From Methylocystis sp. H62 (GTDB taxonomy: Bacteria > Pseudomonadota > Alphaproteobacteria > Rhizobiales > Beijerinckiaceae): a DNA stretch of 64,000 nt. Each line of letters opens with the position of its first letter. Within the stretch, counting starts at the first letter, position 1. The DNA is taken from assembly GCF_015709515.1 (NCBI RefSeq), contig NZ_JADNQZ010000059.1, positions 310,001-374,000 of the forward strand, given 5' to 3'. This document shows, piece by piece, positions 5,635 to 61,416 of the stretch. The notes below the pieces were generated by a model. That model saw only the letters and a list, made by a program, of their open reading frames with translations, did no database searches and was not told where the DNA came from. Made by a program: the position numbers and the translations under genes.

Positions 5635-6773
5635 GCGCGCCGCGCATCTTCGTTGTCGCTGGCGAAGCCTCTGGCGATCAGCTCGGCGCGGCGCTGATGC
5701 GGGCTTTGCGCGCCGCGCGTCCCGAGGCCGTTTTCACCGGCGTCGGGGGCGAGGCGATGGCGCGCGAAGGCCTCGTTTCCCTGTTTCCGCTCGAAGACAT
5801 CGCGGTGATGGGCCTCATTCCGGTCTTGGCGCGGCTGCCGCGCCTTGTGTGGCGCATCGCTCAGACGGCGCGGGCGATCGTCGATCAGGCGCCGGACTGT
5901 CTCGTCATCATCGACGCGCCAGATTTTACCCATCGCGTCGCGCGCCGGGTCCGGGTCGCCCGACCTGACCTGCCGATCGTCGATTACGTCAGCCCGACCG
6001 TATGGGCGTGGCGGCCCGGCCGCGCGCGCGCGATGCGCGACTACGTCGATTGCCTGCTGGCGCTGCTGCCCTTCGAGCCGCAGGCGCATGATCGGCTCGG
6101 CGGGCCGCGATGCGTCTATGTCGGCCATCCGCTGGTCGAGCGGCTCGACGAGCTGACGCGGCCGTCTCACGATCGCGGCGGCGCGCGGTCGCTGCTCGTT
6201 CTGCCCGGATCGCGTCTTGCGGAAGTGCGGCGCATGACGCCGATCTACGGCGAGGCGCTCGAGCTTCTTTTGCGCGAACGCGCCGACTTCGAGGTCGTCA
6301 TTCCTGTCGCGCCGAATGTTGAGAAGACATTACTACGCGAATTGCGGGGATGGCCGATGACGCCGCGTCTGATTGGCCAGGCGGAGAAATTCGCCGCGTT
6401 CCGAAATGCGCGCGCCGCACTTGTGACGTCCGGCGTCGCGACGCTGGAGCTTGCGCTCGCCGGCGTTCCCATGGCTGTCGCCTATAAGGTCTCGCGCGCC
6501 GAATCGCTGCTGCGCTTTCTCGTCAAAGTCGACTCGATCGTACTGCCCAATCTCGTCATCGGCGAGAATATTGTACCGGAATTCCTGCAGGAGGCGGCGA
6601 CGCCGCACGCGCTCGCCGAGGCGCTGAGGCCGCTCTTGCGCGAGAGCGCCGCGCGCGACGCGCAGCTCGCGGCCTTTAAGCGCGTTCGCGCGCGTCTGCT
6701 CGAGGCAGGCCGAACGCCGAGCGTTCGGGCGGCTGACATCATCCTCGAATATGCGTCGCGCGGTCGGGGGTAG
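5631..6773 (+). CDS. lpxB: Lipid A disaccharide synthase LpxB
   Basis: A 380-residue GT19 glycosyltransferase that joins UDP-2,3-diacylglucosamine and lipid X to give the lipid A disaccharide at the inner face of the membrane. Recognised by the N-terminal VAGEASGDQLGA motif, SPTVWAWRPGRA near residue 120 and VGHPLVE. The ATG at 5631 overlaps the lpxA stop (ATGA) and gives the standard N-terminus. In many alphaproteobacteria lpxI lies between lpxA and lpxB; here there is no room for it. Confidence 0.95.
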   Translation: MSAPRIFVVAGEASGDQLGAALMRALRAARPEAVFTGVGGEAMAREGLVSLFPLEDIAVMGLIPVLARLPRLVWRIAQTARAIVDQAPDCLVIIDAPDFTHRVARRVRVARPDLPIVDYVSPTVWAWRPGRARAMRDYVDCLLALLPFEPQAHDRLGGPRCVYVGHPLVERLDELTRPSHDRGGARSLLVLPGSRLAEVRRMTPIYGEALELLLRERADFEVVIPVAPNVEKTLLRELRGWPMTPRLIGQAEKFAAFRNARAALVTSGVATLELALAGVPMAVAYKVSRAESLLRFLVKVDSIVLPNLVIGENIVPEFLQEAATPHALAEALRPLLRESAARDAQLAAFKRVRARLLEAGRTPSVRAADIILEYASRGRG

Positions 6774-52115: not shown

Positions 52116-52697
52116 ATGCCACGCGTTTACGCCTATTGTCGCGTCTCGACGAAGGAGCAATCGACGCAAAATCAGGTCGAAGAAATCAAGATCGCCGGCT
52201 TCGACATTGCGCCGCATCGGATCGTTGAAGAGGAGATCAGCGGCGGCGTGGTCGCCAGTCAGCGTCCGGGCTTTGCTCGCTTGATGGAGCGTTTGGAACC
52301 GGGCGACATGCTGGTTTGCACGAAACTCGACAGGCTCGGCCGGAATGCGCTCGACGTGCGGCAGACTGTTGAAAACCTTGCTGCGCGCGGCGTTAAAGTG
52401 GCGTGTCTCGGACTTGGCGGCGCTACCGATCTAACGTCCAGCGCCGGCAAGATGTTGATGGGCGTCGTCGCCGCCATGGCTGAATTCGAGCGCGATCTCT
52501 TGATTGAGCGAACGCAAGCCGGGCTCGCCCGCGCCAAGGCCGAAGGCCGAGTGACGGGGCGGCCGTGGCGGCTTACGGAACAAGAGCGAAGGAGCGTCCG
52601 CGATCGGCTCGGGGCCGGGGCGACAGTCTCTCAATTGGCGCGAGAGTTCGGTGTCGATCGTCGTCTGATCCAACGGGCGAGAGCGGCTGCGCCCTGA
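52116..52697 (+). CDS. Serine recombinase (resolvase/invertase family)
   Basis: A 193-residue small serine recombinase. The nucleophile Ser is in VYAYCRVSTKEQ (residue 11), with conserved Arg residues in TKLDRLGRNALD. The long E helix (GKMLMGVVAAMAEFERDLLIERTQAGL) and a C-terminal helix-turn-helix (GATVSQLAREFGVDRRLIQRAR) are complete. AGGA lies six bases before the ATG. It could act on the repeat pair just upstream. Such enzymes invert or delete DNA, which is of interest given the inversion at 58447-58710. Confidence 0.93.
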   Translation: MPRVYAYCRVSTKEQSTQNQVEEIKIAGFDIAPHRIVEEEISGGVVASQRPGFARLMERLEPGDMLVCTKLDRLGRNALDVRQTVENLAARGVKVACLGLGGATDLTSSAGKMLMGVVAAMAEFERDLLIERTQAGLARAKAEGRVTGRPWRLTEQERRSVRDRLGAGATVSQLAREFGVDRRLIQRARAAAP

Positions 52698-52787
52698 CTC
52701 CCGGTCGCACCGTCCCGCCTCGAACTTAGCGGGCGACTAATGTTAATGCTATTCACATTGTATTAGGATCGCCTTATATTAGCCGGT

Positions 52788-53333
52788 ATGAAATCTAAAG
52801 GTGATCCACATACCGGGCTCATGAAGGCGACCGCCCGTTCGCGGATCACCAACCGACGGCTTAAACACAAGCAGCTCGGCGTCCGAAGCCTGCTCCTTGA
52901 GGGCAGTGGCAGATCGGCATGGTCGAGGCATTACCGTGATTTGACGCAGTTGCTGGTTGAGGATGCTGGAGGCATCGAAGCGATCAGCGAACTTAAACTC
53001 GGGCTTATCCGCAGGGTTGCGGCGCTGACCGTCGAAGCCGAGCGCCTTGAATGCCAACTCGCCGACGGTCAGCCGGTCGATATCGACGTTTTGGCGCGCG
53101 TTTCGAGCCATATTCGGCGAATCAGCGAATCGATCGGCTTAAATCGCGTGTCGCGCGACGTTTCGCCCACGCTCCAGCAAATCATCGCCGCCCACCAGTC
53201 CAAAGCGCCTGAGAAGCCCAACAGAGCGCCGGAAGCGTCTGAGGCGACTACCGCCGCAGCCGACGCCGAATCACGCACGAACGCGTCCTCTCCGTGCAGC
53301 GACGACGTCATCGCCGAGGAAGAGGCGACATGA
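52788..53333 (+). CDS. Phage-type protein, possible small terminase-like
   Basis: A 181-residue protein: a basic N-terminus, a helical core (LTQLLVEDAGGIEAISELKLGL; VAALTVEAERLECQLADG) and an acidic, Ala/Glu-rich tail. Position ahead of a large terminase gene suggests a DNA-packaging partner, but the helix-turn-helix of small terminases is not certain. The stop overlaps the next ATG (ATGA). Confidence 0.6.
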   Translation: MKSKGDPHTGLMKATARSRITNRRLKHKQLGVRSLLLEGSGRSAWSRHYRDLTQLLVEDAGGIEAISELKLGLIRRVAALTVEAERLECQLADGQPVDIDVLARVSSHIRRISESIGLNRVSRDVSPTLQQIIAAHQSKAPEKPNRAPEASEATTAAADAESRTNASSPCSDDVIAEEEAT

Positions 53334-53563
53334 GCCATCTTCAACCGCGCCCGGAGCCGTCTGACGCCCTGGTTCCCTGGTCCGACGAGGATATCGGCCG
53401 CGCTGTTCTGGTCTATGCCCGCGTCAGAGACGAGGGCCGCCGCGCCGCCGCGCGATGCGAAGTCTGGCGAGTCTTGGCGCGAAGCGTATGGCGAGAGTCG
53501 GTTGCCGGCGAGACGCTTCGTCAGAGACGCAACGCGCGCCTGACGCTCAGTTTGACGCATTGA
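53330..53563 (+). CDS. Small phage-type protein, unknown
   Basis: A 77-residue basic protein translationally coupled to the gene before it. It is rich in Arg and Ala (RVRDEGRRAAARCEVWRVLA). No function is recognised. It ends 40 bases before the terminase gene. Confidence 0.55.
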   Translation: MSHLQPRPEPSDALVPWSDEDIGRAVLVYARVRDEGRRAAARCEVWRVLARSVWRESVAGETLRQRRNARLTLSLTH

Positions 53564-53603
53564 TGGCTCACGACGGCGCTCGCCGAGTGGCGGTCATCGT
53601 TCA

Positions 53604-55118
53604 ATGCCCTCCGCCGACTTGGCCTTGCTCACCATTGTCGATGCGATGGACAGCCCGGCGCTATTCCGGCCGTGGTTCGATGGTCCGTCATGGGACGGCT
53701 GGCGGGCAGTTCTCAAGGCCGCCTACGCCTTGCCGATGAGCGCTGCTGAGATTGATTTCTTCCGCAGCGTCGCCGGCCGTGATCCGCCCAAGCGGCCGGT
53801 CAAGGAAATGTGGTTCGTCGTCGGACGCGGCGGCGGCAAAGACTCCATCGCCAGTTTGATCATCGCGCATACCGCAATGTTGTTCGATCGCAAGTGCAGC
53901 GCATTGCGGCCGGGCGAACGAGCGTTGGTCGGTTGCATCGCAGTCGACCGAGAGCAAGCCGCGATCATCAAAGGTTATGTGCGCAGCTTCTTTCACGACT
54001 GTCTGCCTCTTCGCGAGATGGTCGAGAACGACACGGCCGACGGGCTTCGACTGAGTAACTGCGTCGATGTTTCGATCTTAACGAACAGCTATCGCAGCAT
54101 TCGCGGCAGATCGATGTTGGGCTGTGTGCTCGACGAATGCGCTTTCTATCGCGACGAGAACAGCGTTTCGCCTGATGAAGAGACCTATCGCGCAATTCGC
54201 CCGTCGCTGGCGCGCGTGCCCGGCAGCGTCGTGATTGGCATTTCCAGTCCTTACCGAAAAAGCGGTCTGCTCTATCGCAAATTCACCAAGCACTTCGGCA
54301 AGAACGATGATGACGTGCTCGTCATTCGCGCCGCTAGCAAGATGCTCAATCCGACATTGGACGATGCGGAAATCGAACGAGACCTCGCCGATGATTACGC
54401 CGCCGCAAGAGCGGAATGGTTCGCCGAATGGCGTGACGATGTCGCCGGCTGGATGCCGTTGGAGATCATCGAAGCGGCGCGCGATGGCGGCGTTACGGTC
54501 CGGCCGCCACATCTCAATTCAAGCAAACGCATCTTTTACAGGAGCGGGTGCGATCCAAGCGGGGGCCAGAAAGATTCCTTCACTTGCGCGATTGCGCATG
54601 ACGAAGACGGCGTCTCAATTCTCGATTGCGTTGTCGAAATCAAAGCGCCGTTCGATCCATCCGTAGCGACAAAGCAGATTGCGCATGTTCTCAAGAGCTA
54701 TGGTCTACATTCAACAACCGGCGATAAATATGCTGCGTGATGGGTCGTCTCCGCTTTCCAGAAGGAAGGCATTCGCTACATGCACAGCGAGCGCGATCGC
54801 AGCCAAATCTATCTTGACGCAATGCCCTTGTTCACCTCTGGCAGAGTGCGGCTTCTCGACAGTCAGCGGCTGATTACGCAGTTCGCGCAACTGGAGCGGC
54901 GCACAAGTTCGCTTGGTCGGGATCGAGTCGACCATCCCGCAGCCGGCCACGACGATCTCTGCAATGCAGCAGCGCTGGCCCTTATCACCAAACGCAAATC
55001 TTCCTTCAAAGTCACGCCGAAAATGATCGAACTCGCCGGCATGCCCGGTCCGCCGCGTAACCGCTTCGGGGATAGTCCAGCACCGACGCCGGGGCATCCT
55101 CGCATCGTCCCGTTTTAA
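53604..55118 (+). pseudogene. Phage large terminase subunit, interrupted by an in-frame TGA
   Basis: The frame encodes a large terminase (packaging ATPase and nuclease). ATP-binding residues are in FVVGRGGGKDS and the Walker B region is GCVLDECAFY; the nuclease part starts SGCDPSGGQKDSFTCAIAH. After TTGDKYAA a TGA (54738-54740) stops translation at residue 378. The same frame then goes on with WVVSAFQKEG, SERDRSQIYLDAMPLF, RRTSSLGRDRVDHPAAGHDDL, which is the normal C-terminal end. One base change (for example from CGA or GGA) explains the break. Readthrough or recoding is possible but unsupported. No portal or capsid genes are nearby. Confidence 0.85.
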
Positions 55119-56778: not shown

Positions 56779-59550
56779 ATGAAGCTGACGAACCTTGTTG
56801 TCACGGCAGCTGACAGGATAAACGAGTTCAAGCAGCGCAACCGTGATTATGATGAGCAGTCCGTAACCCCGGGGGCGATCCAGGACTACGAGCCACACGG
56901 CTGGTCAGTAGCTCGCGAACTGAAGACTAAATTCAAGCTTCGCAAGCCGAGAACTGATGACCACAATTTGGAGAATCGCTTTTGGTGTTGCATGTACCGG
57001 CTTGGCTATCCTGAACTCGATGCCGGGCGTCACTTCAAAATTCCGACTGCCGAGAATGTAGAGAAACAAATCGACGTCTTTGCCAAGGACGCAGAGACGG
57101 TGGTGATTGCTGAATGCAAGACTGCGGAAACCTATAAGAAAAAATCGTTGCAAAAGGACCTTGGTGAATTTGATTCAAATAAGCGCTTGATAGCGAGTGC
57201 GCTGCGCAACCACTATGGGCGCAACTTTAAGCCGAAGATCATCTGGCTGTTCGTGCTGTCAAACGTCGTCGTAACGCAGCAGGATTTAGCGCGTGCGCGC
57301 GAGTTGAAAATTCATCTCCTTAGCGACAGGGAACTCACTTACTTCGAGGAGATCGCGAAGGCGCTTGGCCCTGCTGCGCGGCAGCAATTCAAAGCAGAAT
57401 ACTTAGCGGGGCAGGACATCCCGGCACTCGATAATGTTTCCGTGCCGGCCGTAAAAACTAAGCTCAACAACAAACCGGCTTATGTATTCTCATGTAAGGC
57501 ATCTGACATGAGCCGCATCGGTTTTGTCAATCACCGCGACCTTCGAGATCCCAATTCGGCTCCCACGTATCAACGTCTTGTGAATCCAAACCGCCTCAAG
57601 AAGGTTGCCGAATTTCTCAGGGGCGGCGGCTATTTCCCAAACTCAATCCTAGTCAACTTCCAATTTCGCCCTCGGTTCGATCTCGCTCTTGCTAGCAACG
57701 ACAAGGACATTCAATTCGGTCACCTGTATCTTCCTAAAAAATACAAGAGCGTAAAAATCATTGACGGCCAACATCGGCTTTATGGGTGCGCGCTGCTCGA
57801 TGAGGAGGATAGGGACCCAAATCTCTTCTTCGTAGCGTTCGATGGGATCTCCGGCACCGAAGAAGCGAACCTGTTCGCGACCATCAATAAAGAGCAGCAG
57901 AAGGTTCAGAAACGCCTCCTGGACGAATTGGACGGCGAGTTGAAGTGGGATTCCGAGGTAGTGAGCGAACGCGTGCAAGCAATCTGCTCGCGAGCGATAG
58001 ACCTGCTTAACGCCGCCTACGGCAATCCGTTCGAAGACAAAGTTGTTTCGCCTGGCATCAACGCATCGGAGGATCGGCCTCTAACGCTGCCAGAAATTCG
58101 CAAGACAATAATTTCAGCGAATTTGGTGTGGCGCATAACTAACAGGGAGTCTTGGGCACCGGGGCCCTTTTGTTGTCTGAAAAAAGGGCAAATCGACAAT
58201 AAGGCAACGCTAGATCGCCTCATGGATGGCCTCACTTGGTACTTCAGCGAAATTCGTTCATTTGAACGTGACAGATGGGAACAGGGTAAGGCGGGCCGAA
58301 TTTGCAACAACTTTGGCGTCCCAGGCTACATCAGATTGTTGTCGGAAATAATCCGCCACGTCGAGAAGACTGACGGGATTAGCGCGACTGACTTGGCGCT
58401 CAAGGACCTTGAGAAGGCGATCAGTCCGTTTCTCGAGCCGGTAGAATTTTTCGCCGTACTCGCTTTTGAGCGTTTCTACGACGTGCTTATGCACTACGTC
58501 CTGAATCCACTTGGCTGTTCTGTCTGCGTGCGCCTGCTGTTCCTTGTTCAGTTCAGACAGCCACTGCTCAAACCCGGTCGGCTTGAACTCCGGCAACGAA
58601 GCGTTCGTAATTTTCGAGAGCGCGAAATAATACTGCTTGACGCCGCCACTACCGAGTTTGACGTTGAACTGCGCCTCGAACTCCTCGTCCGTTGCGTCTT
58701 GAACGAATTTTCACTGTTTGAAACGCCATACGAGAGATACGTTGAACCGTTCCTCGGCGGCGCGGCCGCCTTCTTCGCGTTGCAACCCAAAGGGGCTCTG
58801 CTGTCAGACCTCAATACGGAATTGATCGCGACCTATCGCGCGATCCGCGCCGAGCCAAAGGAGGTTTACGCCAAGCTGCGAGTCCATCAGTGCAAGCATC
58901 TGGAATCCGGCGACTATTATTACAGGGTAAGGTCTAGCAACCCTTTCACGGAGTCGTCGCGTGCTGCGAAATTCGTCTACCTGAACAGAACCTGCTTCAA
59001 TGGCCTGTACCGAGTGAATCTGCGCGGCGAGTTCAACGTGCCGAAAGGAAGCAAGGACTCTGTGATCTTCGGCACAGATGATTTCGATGGCGTATCGCGC
59101 CTGTTCAAACGGGCCACGCTGGTCGATACGGATTTTGAAGATGTTCTGGACCAATGCGACGCTGGTGACTTTGCGTTTGTCGATCCGCCCTACACGGCGA
59201 AACACAACGCGAACGGCTTCCTTAAGTACAACGAGAAGATATTTTCTTGGGAAGACCAGCGTAGGCTGGCAGCCTGCATTCGTCGGTTTAGGAAGCGCGG
59301 CGGCAAGGCCCTCGTTACGAATGCGGCGCACAAGTCGGTGATCGAATTATATCGGGATTTCGGCGAGATTGGCCTTGTTTCGCGAGCGAGCGTGCTTGCA
59401 TCCGAAACGAAACGACGCGGGAGCGTCGAAGAATTGATCGTTACAGTGGGATACCGTGCAGAAGCTGACGGCTTGGTCAGAGAAGCGCCACCACCACATC
59501 GAGAGTCCGCTTTTGGCGCGAAGCAGCCGTCCGCGAGTGGCCGATCCTGA
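56779..59550 (+). CDS. Nuclease-DGQHR protein joined by rearrangement to a Dam-type methylase end
   Basis: A 923-codon open frame made of parts. Residues about 65-200 look like a PD-(D/E)xK nuclease: Asp in QIDVFA (99) and ECK (112-114). Residues about 225-556 are a DGQHR domain (IIDGQHRLYG, Asp 329), as in DndB-related proteins. Residues 557-644 are meaningless on this strand but protein-like when read from the minus strand. Residues 645 on are a D12-class adenine methylase lacking its first 25 or so residues. ATG 56779 follows GGGGAAA. Lower GC than the core genome. As it stands the product is probably a broken chimera; the nuclease-DGQHR part may still fold. Confidence 0.75.
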   Translation: MKLTNLVVTAADRINEFKQRNRDYDEQSVTPGAIQDYEPHGWSVARELKTKFKLRKPRTDDHNLENRFWCCMYRLGYPELDAGRHFKIPTAENVEKQIDVFAKDAETVVIAECKTAETYKKKSLQKDLGEFDSNKRLIASALRNHYGRNFKPKIIWLFVLSNVVVTQQDLARARELKIHLLSDRELTYFEEIAKALGPAARQQFKAEYLAGQDIPALDNVSVPAVKTKLNNKPAYVFSCKASDMSRIGFVNHRDLRDPNSAPTYQRLVNPNRLKKVAEFLRGGGYFPNSILVNFQFRPRFDLALASNDKDIQFGHLYLPKKYKSVKIIDGQHRLYGCALLDEEDRDPNLFFVAFDGISGTEEANLFATINKEQQKVQKRLLDELDGELKWDSEVVSERVQAICSRAIDLLNAAYGNPFEDKVVSPGINASEDRPLTLPEIRKTIISANLVWRITNRESWAPGPFCCLKKGQIDNKATLDRLMDGLTWYFSEIRSFERDRWEQGKAGRICNNFGVPGYIRLLSEIIRHVEKTDGISATDLALKDLEKAISPFLEPVEFFAVLAFERFYDVLMHYVLNPLGCSVCVRLLFLVQFRQPLLKPGRLELRQRSVRNFREREIILLDAATTEFDVELRLELLVRCVLNEFSLFETPYERYVEPFLGGAAAFFALQPKGALLSDLNTELIATYRAIRAEPKEVYAKLRVHQCKHLESGDYYYRVRSSNPFTESSRAAKFVYLNRTCFNGLYRVNLRGEFNVPKGSKDSVIFGTDDFDGVSRLFKRATLVDTDFEDVLDQCDAGDFAFVDPPYTAKHNANGFLKYNEKIFSWEDQRRLAACIRRFRKRGGKALVTNAAHKSVIELYRDFGEIGLVSRASVLASETKRRGSVEELIVTVGYRAEADGLVREAPPPHRESAFGAKQPSASGRS
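58447..58710 (-). other. Inverted 264-bp segment: displaced C-terminal piece of the DGQHR gene
   Basis: Read on the minus strand from 58710, this encodes 88 residues: KFVQDATDEEFEAQFNVKLG, then SGGVKQYYFALSKI, PEFKPTGFEQWLSELN and VVETLKSEYGEK. In sense, the upstream plus-strand part ends LEKAISPFLEPVE. Turning the segment round gives FLEPVE-KFVQDATDEEFEAQF in frame, a natural continuation. TGA lies directly upstream of the segment on the minus strand, and beyond 58447 the minus frame is antisense to DGQHR. Runs of T (58447-58451 and 58708-58711) mark both joints. Confidence 0.75.
58711..59550 (+). pseudogene. Dam/D12-class N6-adenine methylase lacking its N-terminus
   Basis: From LFETPYERYVEPFLGGAAAFF onward the sequence follows D12-class methylases: motif I region EPFLGGAA, SDLNTELIATYRAI, the catalytic DPPY in FAFVDPPYTAKHN (residue 802 of the joined frame), and a C-terminal SETKRRGSVEELIV. 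The N-terminal KWAGGK-type motif needed for S-adenosylmethionine binding is missing, replaced by the inverted segment. The last 25 residues after VTVGYRAEAD are non-family sequence. Probably inactive. Confidence 0.8.
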
Positions 59551-60020: not shown

Positions 60021-61091
60021 ATGATGAAGGCTAAAATTTTTGTCAGCTACGCGAGCATTGACAAAGAGTTTGCAGAAGCTCTCAAGAATTTCATAGAGAG
60101 CACCTTCGCTGGAGGCGTTACTGTTTTCGTGTCATCCGAGTCTTTGCTCCCAGGAGATCATTGGTCTGCAAAGATAGTGGAGCACTTGCAAGGCGCAAAG
60201 ATACTGGTTTCAATCCTGACCCCACAATCGCTTAGCCGTCCATGGGTGATCTTCGAGTCAGGCGTTGCACTTGGAAAAGGGATTCGGGTCATTCCTGTCT
60301 GCACAAAGGGGCTTGCGAAGGACCATGTCGGCCCCCCCCTAAACGTTATGCAATTATTAAACATCGCCGACGAAGAGGGGCTAAAACGCCTTATCAAGAA
60401 TATTTCCTCTGAAATAGAATTCGACAAACCGAACATAGACGAGCGGCAAAGCGCAGAAATAATTAAGCTGGCGGCGGTCAGCGATATGCCGGCCCCACTT
60501 AGTCCCGCCGCAAAAGAACAGGAACATGTCCATCTCCACAAGATGCGCTTAGAATGGGACGAATTAGCTGATGAGCGGAAGATTTTCTGGGAGGCGTTAA
60601 ACAAATACTATGGAGCTAAGTACAGAGCGGCCAAAGGTTATACTAACACGATTGAGCAGTTAGTGGATCTCTCGGAGCCCCCTTACGGCCTTCCGCTGAA
60701 GGACAAAAACGAGCACTTGCTAAATTACCAAGTCAATTATGCAAGATATTTGACCGGCGATAGCGTTAAGTTACGGAATATTTGTAATCTCATTTATCCC
60801 CCAAAGGACAGTTCTAAGCTTCTCGCCGATTGTAGTGCGATTCCTCGTGACATGTTCGACGCCTTTCATAGCGCACGTAAAAAGCTGGCAACGTTTTGGA
60901 ACCGTTGGGCAGAAGATGCCTACGATAATCGGATCATTGGCCTTGATACGATTGCGAGAGCATTCGACAACTCACATCGAATAATGAAAATACTTAGTTA
61001 CCTTGAGACATCGTTAGTGCTTTGGACCGAGGACAAAGGGCAAGGTAAGCGTTATCTATTTCGACTTACAAAAGATTTCCCGCGCCTTTAA
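60021..61091 (+). CDS. TIR-domain protein, candidate anti-phage effector
   Basis: A 356-residue soluble protein. The TIR domain is N-terminal (about residues 1-140): IFVSYASIDKEFAEAL, VFVSSESLLPGDHW, ILVSILTPQSLSRPW and the likely catalytic Glu in VIFESGVALG, as in NAD-cleaving bacterial TIR proteins. The C-terminal 200 residues are helical and charged, with no domain I recognise; they may sense the trigger. GAGGGA lies eight bases before the ATG. Low GC compared with the core, next to a tRNA gene and near the nuclease-DGQHR gene: a defence-island setting. Confidence 0.88.
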   Translation: MMKAKIFVSYASIDKEFAEALKNFIESTFAGGVTVFVSSESLLPGDHWSAKIVEHLQGAKILVSILTPQSLSRPWVIFESGVALGKGIRVIPVCTKGLAKDHVGPPLNVMQLLNIADEEGLKRLIKNISSEIEFDKPNIDERQSAEIIKLAAVSDMPAPLSPAAKEQEHVHLHKMRLEWDELADERKIFWEALNKYYGAKYRAAKGYTNTIEQLVDLSEPPYGLPLKDKNEHLLNYQVNYARYLTGDSVKLRNICNLIYPPKDSSKLLADCSAIPRDMFDAFHSARKKLATFWNRWAEDAYDNRIIGLDTIARAFDNSHRIMKILSYLETSLVLWTEDKGQGKRYLFRLTKDFPRL

Positions 61092-61367: not shown

Positions 61368-61416
61368 GCCGAATCTGCCCGCAGCGATATTATTCGCAAC
61401 TTATTGAATTTAAAGG

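Follow-up and report, generated by a model that had tools for sequence, protein, structure and literature searches.

Short coding pieces that lie inverted within bacterial genes, with a recombinase gene nearby, are known from site-specific inversion and from intragenic invertons, the latter reportedly described by Chanin et al. in 2024. Invertible sites are bounded by terminal inverted repeats, typically of 10–20 nt and sometimes mismatched (PMC5903667, in its description of such sites). Short template-switch mutations also place a reverse-complement copy of a short local stretch where the switch occurs and drop the sequence bypassed; they have been explained by a four-point model in which synthesis leaves its template, copies backwards and resumes further on; the mutations presented in this part of the account come from great apes (PMC7954356). 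For Dnd systems, HEPN and nuclease associations have been shown, and the sections of PMC10853773 that deal with them do not show a nuclease-DGQHR gene paired with a Dam-type methylase gene.

The locus described here, from Methylocystis sp. H62, shares with invertons a short inverted coding piece and a nearby recombinase gene, and with template-switch mutations a local reverse-complement copy next to a loss of sequence. It lies in a stretch of 64,000 nucleotides (the window; contig NZ_JADNQZ010000059.1, positions 310,001 to 374,000) and consists of one ORF on the plus strand, from 56779 (alternative start 56761) to 59550, which has no internal stop. Its parts are the following.

56779..58446, plus strand: nuclease-DGQHR front part, the first 556 residues, in an intact frame (TIGR03187, PF14072, PADLOC DpdB, eight aligned homologues)
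58447..58710, minus strand: segment X, the 88 DGQHR residues that directly follow the front part, read as inverted (translation and 8/8 homologues)
58710..58711, no strand: site of a deletion, about 397–448 bp by comparison with four homologous loci, L004, L005, L013 and L014 (lengths in relatives)
58711..59550, plus strand: Dam-type (D12) N6-adenine methyltransferase part, without N-terminus or start codon of its own, in frame with the ORF (TIGR00571, PF02086)

The front 556 residues matched TIGR03187 (DGQHR) with an E value of 6.4e-34 and 118 bits, above the curated cut-off of 58.85, as well as PF14072 (DndB, E 1.7e-9) and PADLOC DpdB (E 1.1e-16). Residues 90–190 gave a weak match to PADLOC CARF_PDDEXK (E 7.3e-4), and a pattern search of our own points, weakly, to a PD-(D/E)xK-like motif, IDVFAKDAETVVIAECK, at residue 98, N-terminal to the DGQHR/DndB-like domain. 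The methylase part matched TIGR00571 over model positions 26–266 of 267 (E 2.3e-58, 198 bits, above the curated cut-off of 114.85) and PF02086 (E 2e-43). The motif set of the Dam family is KWxGGK, EPFxG and DPPY. EPFLG and DPPY are present in the methylase part, while KWxGGK, which we take to be the SAM-contacting motif X, is missing from the fused ORF and stands N-terminally in 5/5 homologous methylases of relatives. Segment X matched no family at E 0.001 in its plus reading and none in its minus reading, so that homologues were needed to decide its orientation.

At E 1e-20 the front part was found in 3 of 385 genomes of the class, the source included, and X alone in 2 of 297 genomes of the order, again including the source; the front part, run once against genome contigs, hit two loci. 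Phages gave no match, and in viral contigs neither the front part nor X nor the junction pattern was found. Among plasmids, 28 records had the front part; five covered at least 80 % of it, all at less than 60 % identity, and two of these full-length homologues were used (H1 and H4). In the matches listed, H2 looks almost identical to H1, while H3 and H5 look like duplicates of H4. The remaining 23 plasmid records matched the query in part and were left out of the alignment. With X as the query no plasmid matched at E 1e-5, yet both plasmid-borne homologues carry X by direct alignment, and the empty search is explained by a short and divergent query. These searches returned no close relative from which the event could be dated or its breakpoints read.

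Eight DGQHR proteins were aligned with three pieces taken separately, namely the front 556 residues, X in each reading and the methylase part. The contig scan supplied L004 (Aquisalinus luteolus) and L005 (a Flavobacteriales MAG), L008 and L009 are plasmid-borne, L013, L014 and L015 come from genomes of the same class or order, and L021 from a genome of the same phylum. In L005 the DGQHR gene is frameshifted, divided between two overlapping frames (447–2739), and its second ORF alone was aligned. The minus strand of 58447–58710 encodes 88 residues without a stop, and these matched all eight homologues with scores of 74–168, none of 200 shuffles being as good in any of them. Read on the plus strand, as residues 557–644 of the ORF, the same segment did little better than chance against any of the eight (between 9 and 187 of 200 shuffles scored as well), and the lowest count, that for L013, came from a match at an unrelated place. 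The X match began at the residue adjoining the partner of window residue 556 in five homologues (L005, L009, L013, L014 and L015) and was displaced by 1–2 residues in the other three (L004, L008 and L021), local alignments that did not begin at residue 1 having been extended ungapped. The initial annotation, made from the window alone, had proposed a 264-bp inversion at 58447..58710 with DGQHR-like residues on the minus strand and had expected homologues to continue through the re-inverted residues; both proposals agree with the alignments, in which 8/8 homologues continue within 0–2 residues of the end of the front part.

A profile built from six of the homologues divided over opposite strands of the source genome, with model positions 2–118 at 58078–58443 on the plus strand and positions 120–210 at the abutting 58447–58710 on the minus strand; model positions 211–323 had no match in the source genome. 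The flipped orientation was seen in 0/8 aligned homologues. From the minus-strand match in all eight and the split of the profile, we conclude that the assembled sequence does contain the inversion. Its length of exactly 264 bp is a codon-aligned choice, both ends lying in A/T runs where the breakpoints are fixed only to within a few bases. The openness of the re-inverted frame follows from X being coding and from its ends having been set on codon borders, and is therefore not separate evidence. Identity of X to four homologues was 0.27–0.36, as against 0.29–0.38 for the preceding 88 residues; this lack of decay, together with the absence of stops, suggests that the event was recent.

The methylase part had been taken for the natural continuation of the DGQHR gene, a reading that we abandoned because a separate, neighbouring Dam-type methylase gene adjoins the nuclease-DGQHR gene in five relatives. 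These pairs, in which the front part, X and the methylase part are all homologous to the window, lie at 5986–9166 in L004, 447–3685 in L005, 3241–6151 in L013 (G588), 3852–7054 in L014 (G438) and 1143–4311 in L021 (G867). The two genes are on the same strand, with the DGQHR gene ahead of the methylase gene in the first four and the methylase first in L021, and they overlap by 14 (L004), 17 (L013) or 4 bases (L014); the start of the L005 methylase is uncertain. In L004, L005, L013 and L014 the DGQHR gene runs 111–123 aa past X, and a methylase gene that has its N-terminus comes next; about 397–448 bp separate the end of X from the codon that pairs with the second residue of the methylase part. 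Whereas the relatives' pairs have X in its normal orientation, a C-terminal tail and a methylase with its N-terminus, the window has X flipped and neither the tail nor the methylase start. The part lost comprises the DGQHR C-terminal tail (111–123 aa in relatives) and the first ~25 methylase residues. The initial picture of an inversion within a single gene was right about the flip, but had overlooked this loss of ~0.4 kb and the fusion of two genes.

A profile of the tail had no match in the source genome at E≤10, while it recovered its positive controls G086 (independent and distant, 5.3e-11), G588 (7.5e-52) and G438 (3.8e-54), the last two being in the profile themselves. A single-sequence search of the source genome with the tail, run without a positive control, was also empty. 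The L005 methylase matched the source genome in one place only, starting at L005 residue 28, and its first 38 residues gave no match there at E≤10, although the same query matched the methylase gene in 3/3 control genomes (E 2.2e-10, 5.0e-8 and 5.9e-6). In agreement with the genome-wide search, tblastn did not find the methylase N-terminus in the window. Judged by these comparisons, the ORF is a fusion of two genes, a DGQHR front and a headless methylase.

Tails of the lost type showed weak similarity to HEPN_Swt1 in three of seven proteins (L008, E 1.7e-4; L021, E 3.2e-4; L014, E 0.035), all tail scores being below the Pfam curated cut-off and Abi_2 (E 0.004) outranking HEPN_Swt1 in L014; the Pfam scan gave no HEPN_Swt1 similarity in the tails of L004, L005, L009 and L013. 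An R-x4-H element was invariant in 6/6 aligned tails. In L015 (4281–6293, minus strand, G086) a stop codon stands just before the HEPN-like tail, which goes on in frame beyond it; either this tail was lost here too, independently, or the stop is read through.

We consider it likely that the locus arose by a recent, one-off inversion and deletion of the template-switch type in a two-gene locus. The relatives show the ancestral order: a DGQHR gene made up of front part, X and tail, with a Dam-type methylase gene of its own behind it. In the window X lies flipped in place, the tail and the start of the methylase gene are gone, and one open frame holds the DGQHR front, X in antisense and a methylase without its head. 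The flipped piece is the reverse complement of a stretch that belongs at the same place in homologues, and a single template switch during replication could account for both flip and deletion if synthesis left its template at the end of the front part, copied X backwards and resumed ~0.4 kb downstream; a three-break repair that put X back reversed and dropped the tail would reach the same outcome by another route. On the minus strand, the residues past the end of X read GEK-FY, resembling GEK-FW at the equivalent place in L021, which makes microhomology of a few bases plausible, though unproven, at the left junction; since the closest homologues found were 39–45 % identical in the front part, they offer no ancestral DNA at the breakpoints from which the switch points could be fixed or microhomology proven. 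After such an event the methylase would be inactive and the whole system probably so, and the simultaneous loss of both genes could let the cell survive the loss of the methylase from a nuclease–methylase pair. What counts against an accident is the open frame, as inverted inserts of similar length taken at random allowed reading to continue to the end of the methylase in no more than about 4 % of 20,000 simulated trials.

The initial annotation had left the choice between an illegitimate one-off event and a switchable segment, and the former is the better option. A live invertible segment, with a recombinase flipping X between two fusion proteins, would have a candidate enzyme in the serine recombinase at 52116–52697 (PF00239; PHROG 'DNA invertase'), 5.7 kb upstream of the fused ORF, whose proximity had been pointed out correctly, and X keeps an open, in-phase frame whichever way it lies. 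That openness had also been read correctly, but it carries little weight as a sign of a switch, because 661 of 2225 88-codon windows in seven nearby ORFs have an open antisense frame, as do 151 of 661 such windows in the two parts of the fused gene itself; a frame open both ways is a mild coincidence and says little for any reading. The ends of X were found to be poor inverted repeats, as had been stated: the best 26-base inverted match between them was 13/26, equalled in 943 of 2000 random placements, and the longest exact one was 6 bases, equalled in 640 of 2000. A repeat search of 58350–58800 returned three inverted pairs, none of which linked the two ends. Unlike an inverton, moreover, the locus would hold no intact gene with X either way round, and no homologue among the eight has X flipped; as the assembly yielded no trace of the missing ~0.4 kb of the two genes, flipping X back restores neither. 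We therefore rejected the switch, which has no end repeats beyond chance and whose missing part was not found in the genome, as scarcely credible.

An artefact of amplification or assembly, in which a chimeric molecule brought together an inverted piece and a deletion, seems unlikely to us, though less so than the switch. Chimeras formed in Phi29 amplification have a similar anatomy, being mainly inverted sequences with intervening deletions (more than 85 % of 475 chimeras, in the data set reported in PMC1855051). The draft assembly comprises 59 contigs, neither viral contigs (exact pattern, 0) nor plasmids (no match to that part) yielded the junction a second time, and the front part is present in 1 of 39 genomes of the genus, namely the source itself. 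Such an artefact would nevertheless require two junctions in a window that has no N, at a site ~368 kb into its contig, and no remnant of the lost part turned up in the assembly, although a discarded 0.4-kb contig is conceivable. It is quite improbable that the fused 923-residue protein is functional and under selection with antisense X as a linker. In favour of this reading, nothing interrupts the frame between the DGQHR start and the methylase stop, as was so for few of the simulated inserts; against it, the methylase lacks the KWxGGK of its relatives, plus-strand X is like no homologue and hit no family at E 0.001, and a recent event would look identical without selection. We give very little credence to the broader proposal that the inversion and deletion built a new bifunctional protein from a nuclease-DGQHR module, an antisense-X linker and a methylase core.

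The one-off inversion and deletion is an event of a known kind, of which this instance is new. It documents cleanly, by homology, how an inversion of less than a kilobase and a deletion struck within bacterial genes, at a locus that ordinary annotation would call one intact fused ORF. It also carries two warnings: behind a long uninterrupted ORF with two well-matched domains there may be two neighbouring genes that have been broken, and a reading frame that stays open either way round is no evidence for a switch. The DGQHR/methylase pair of distant bacteria is possibly a little-described restriction or defence pair; our searches of the literature on DGQHR, on DndB, Dam and HEPN and on defence turned up no description of a nuclease-DGQHR gene with a weakly HEPN-like tail paired with a Dam-type methylase.

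Elsewhere in the source genome, a second, distant DGQHR-like protein (L002 1003–2943, minus strand; G000:C58:477399–477776) has 32 % identity over residues 255–393. Within the window, a terminase-large-subunit-like ORF (phrog_2, E 7.5e-20) accompanies the serine recombinase in the region 52116–54740, and the two together hint that remains of a prophage, or an island of phage origin, lie close to the locus. The end region (51–65 bp) of a tRNA-Glu at 61400–61492 matches three Methylocystis rosea plasmids at 92–96 %, with no annotated feature there; it is a possible attachment site, and no convincing second copy was found within the window. Downstream of the fused ORF, at 60021–61091, lies a gene for a TIR-domain protein (PF13676), possibly another defence gene.
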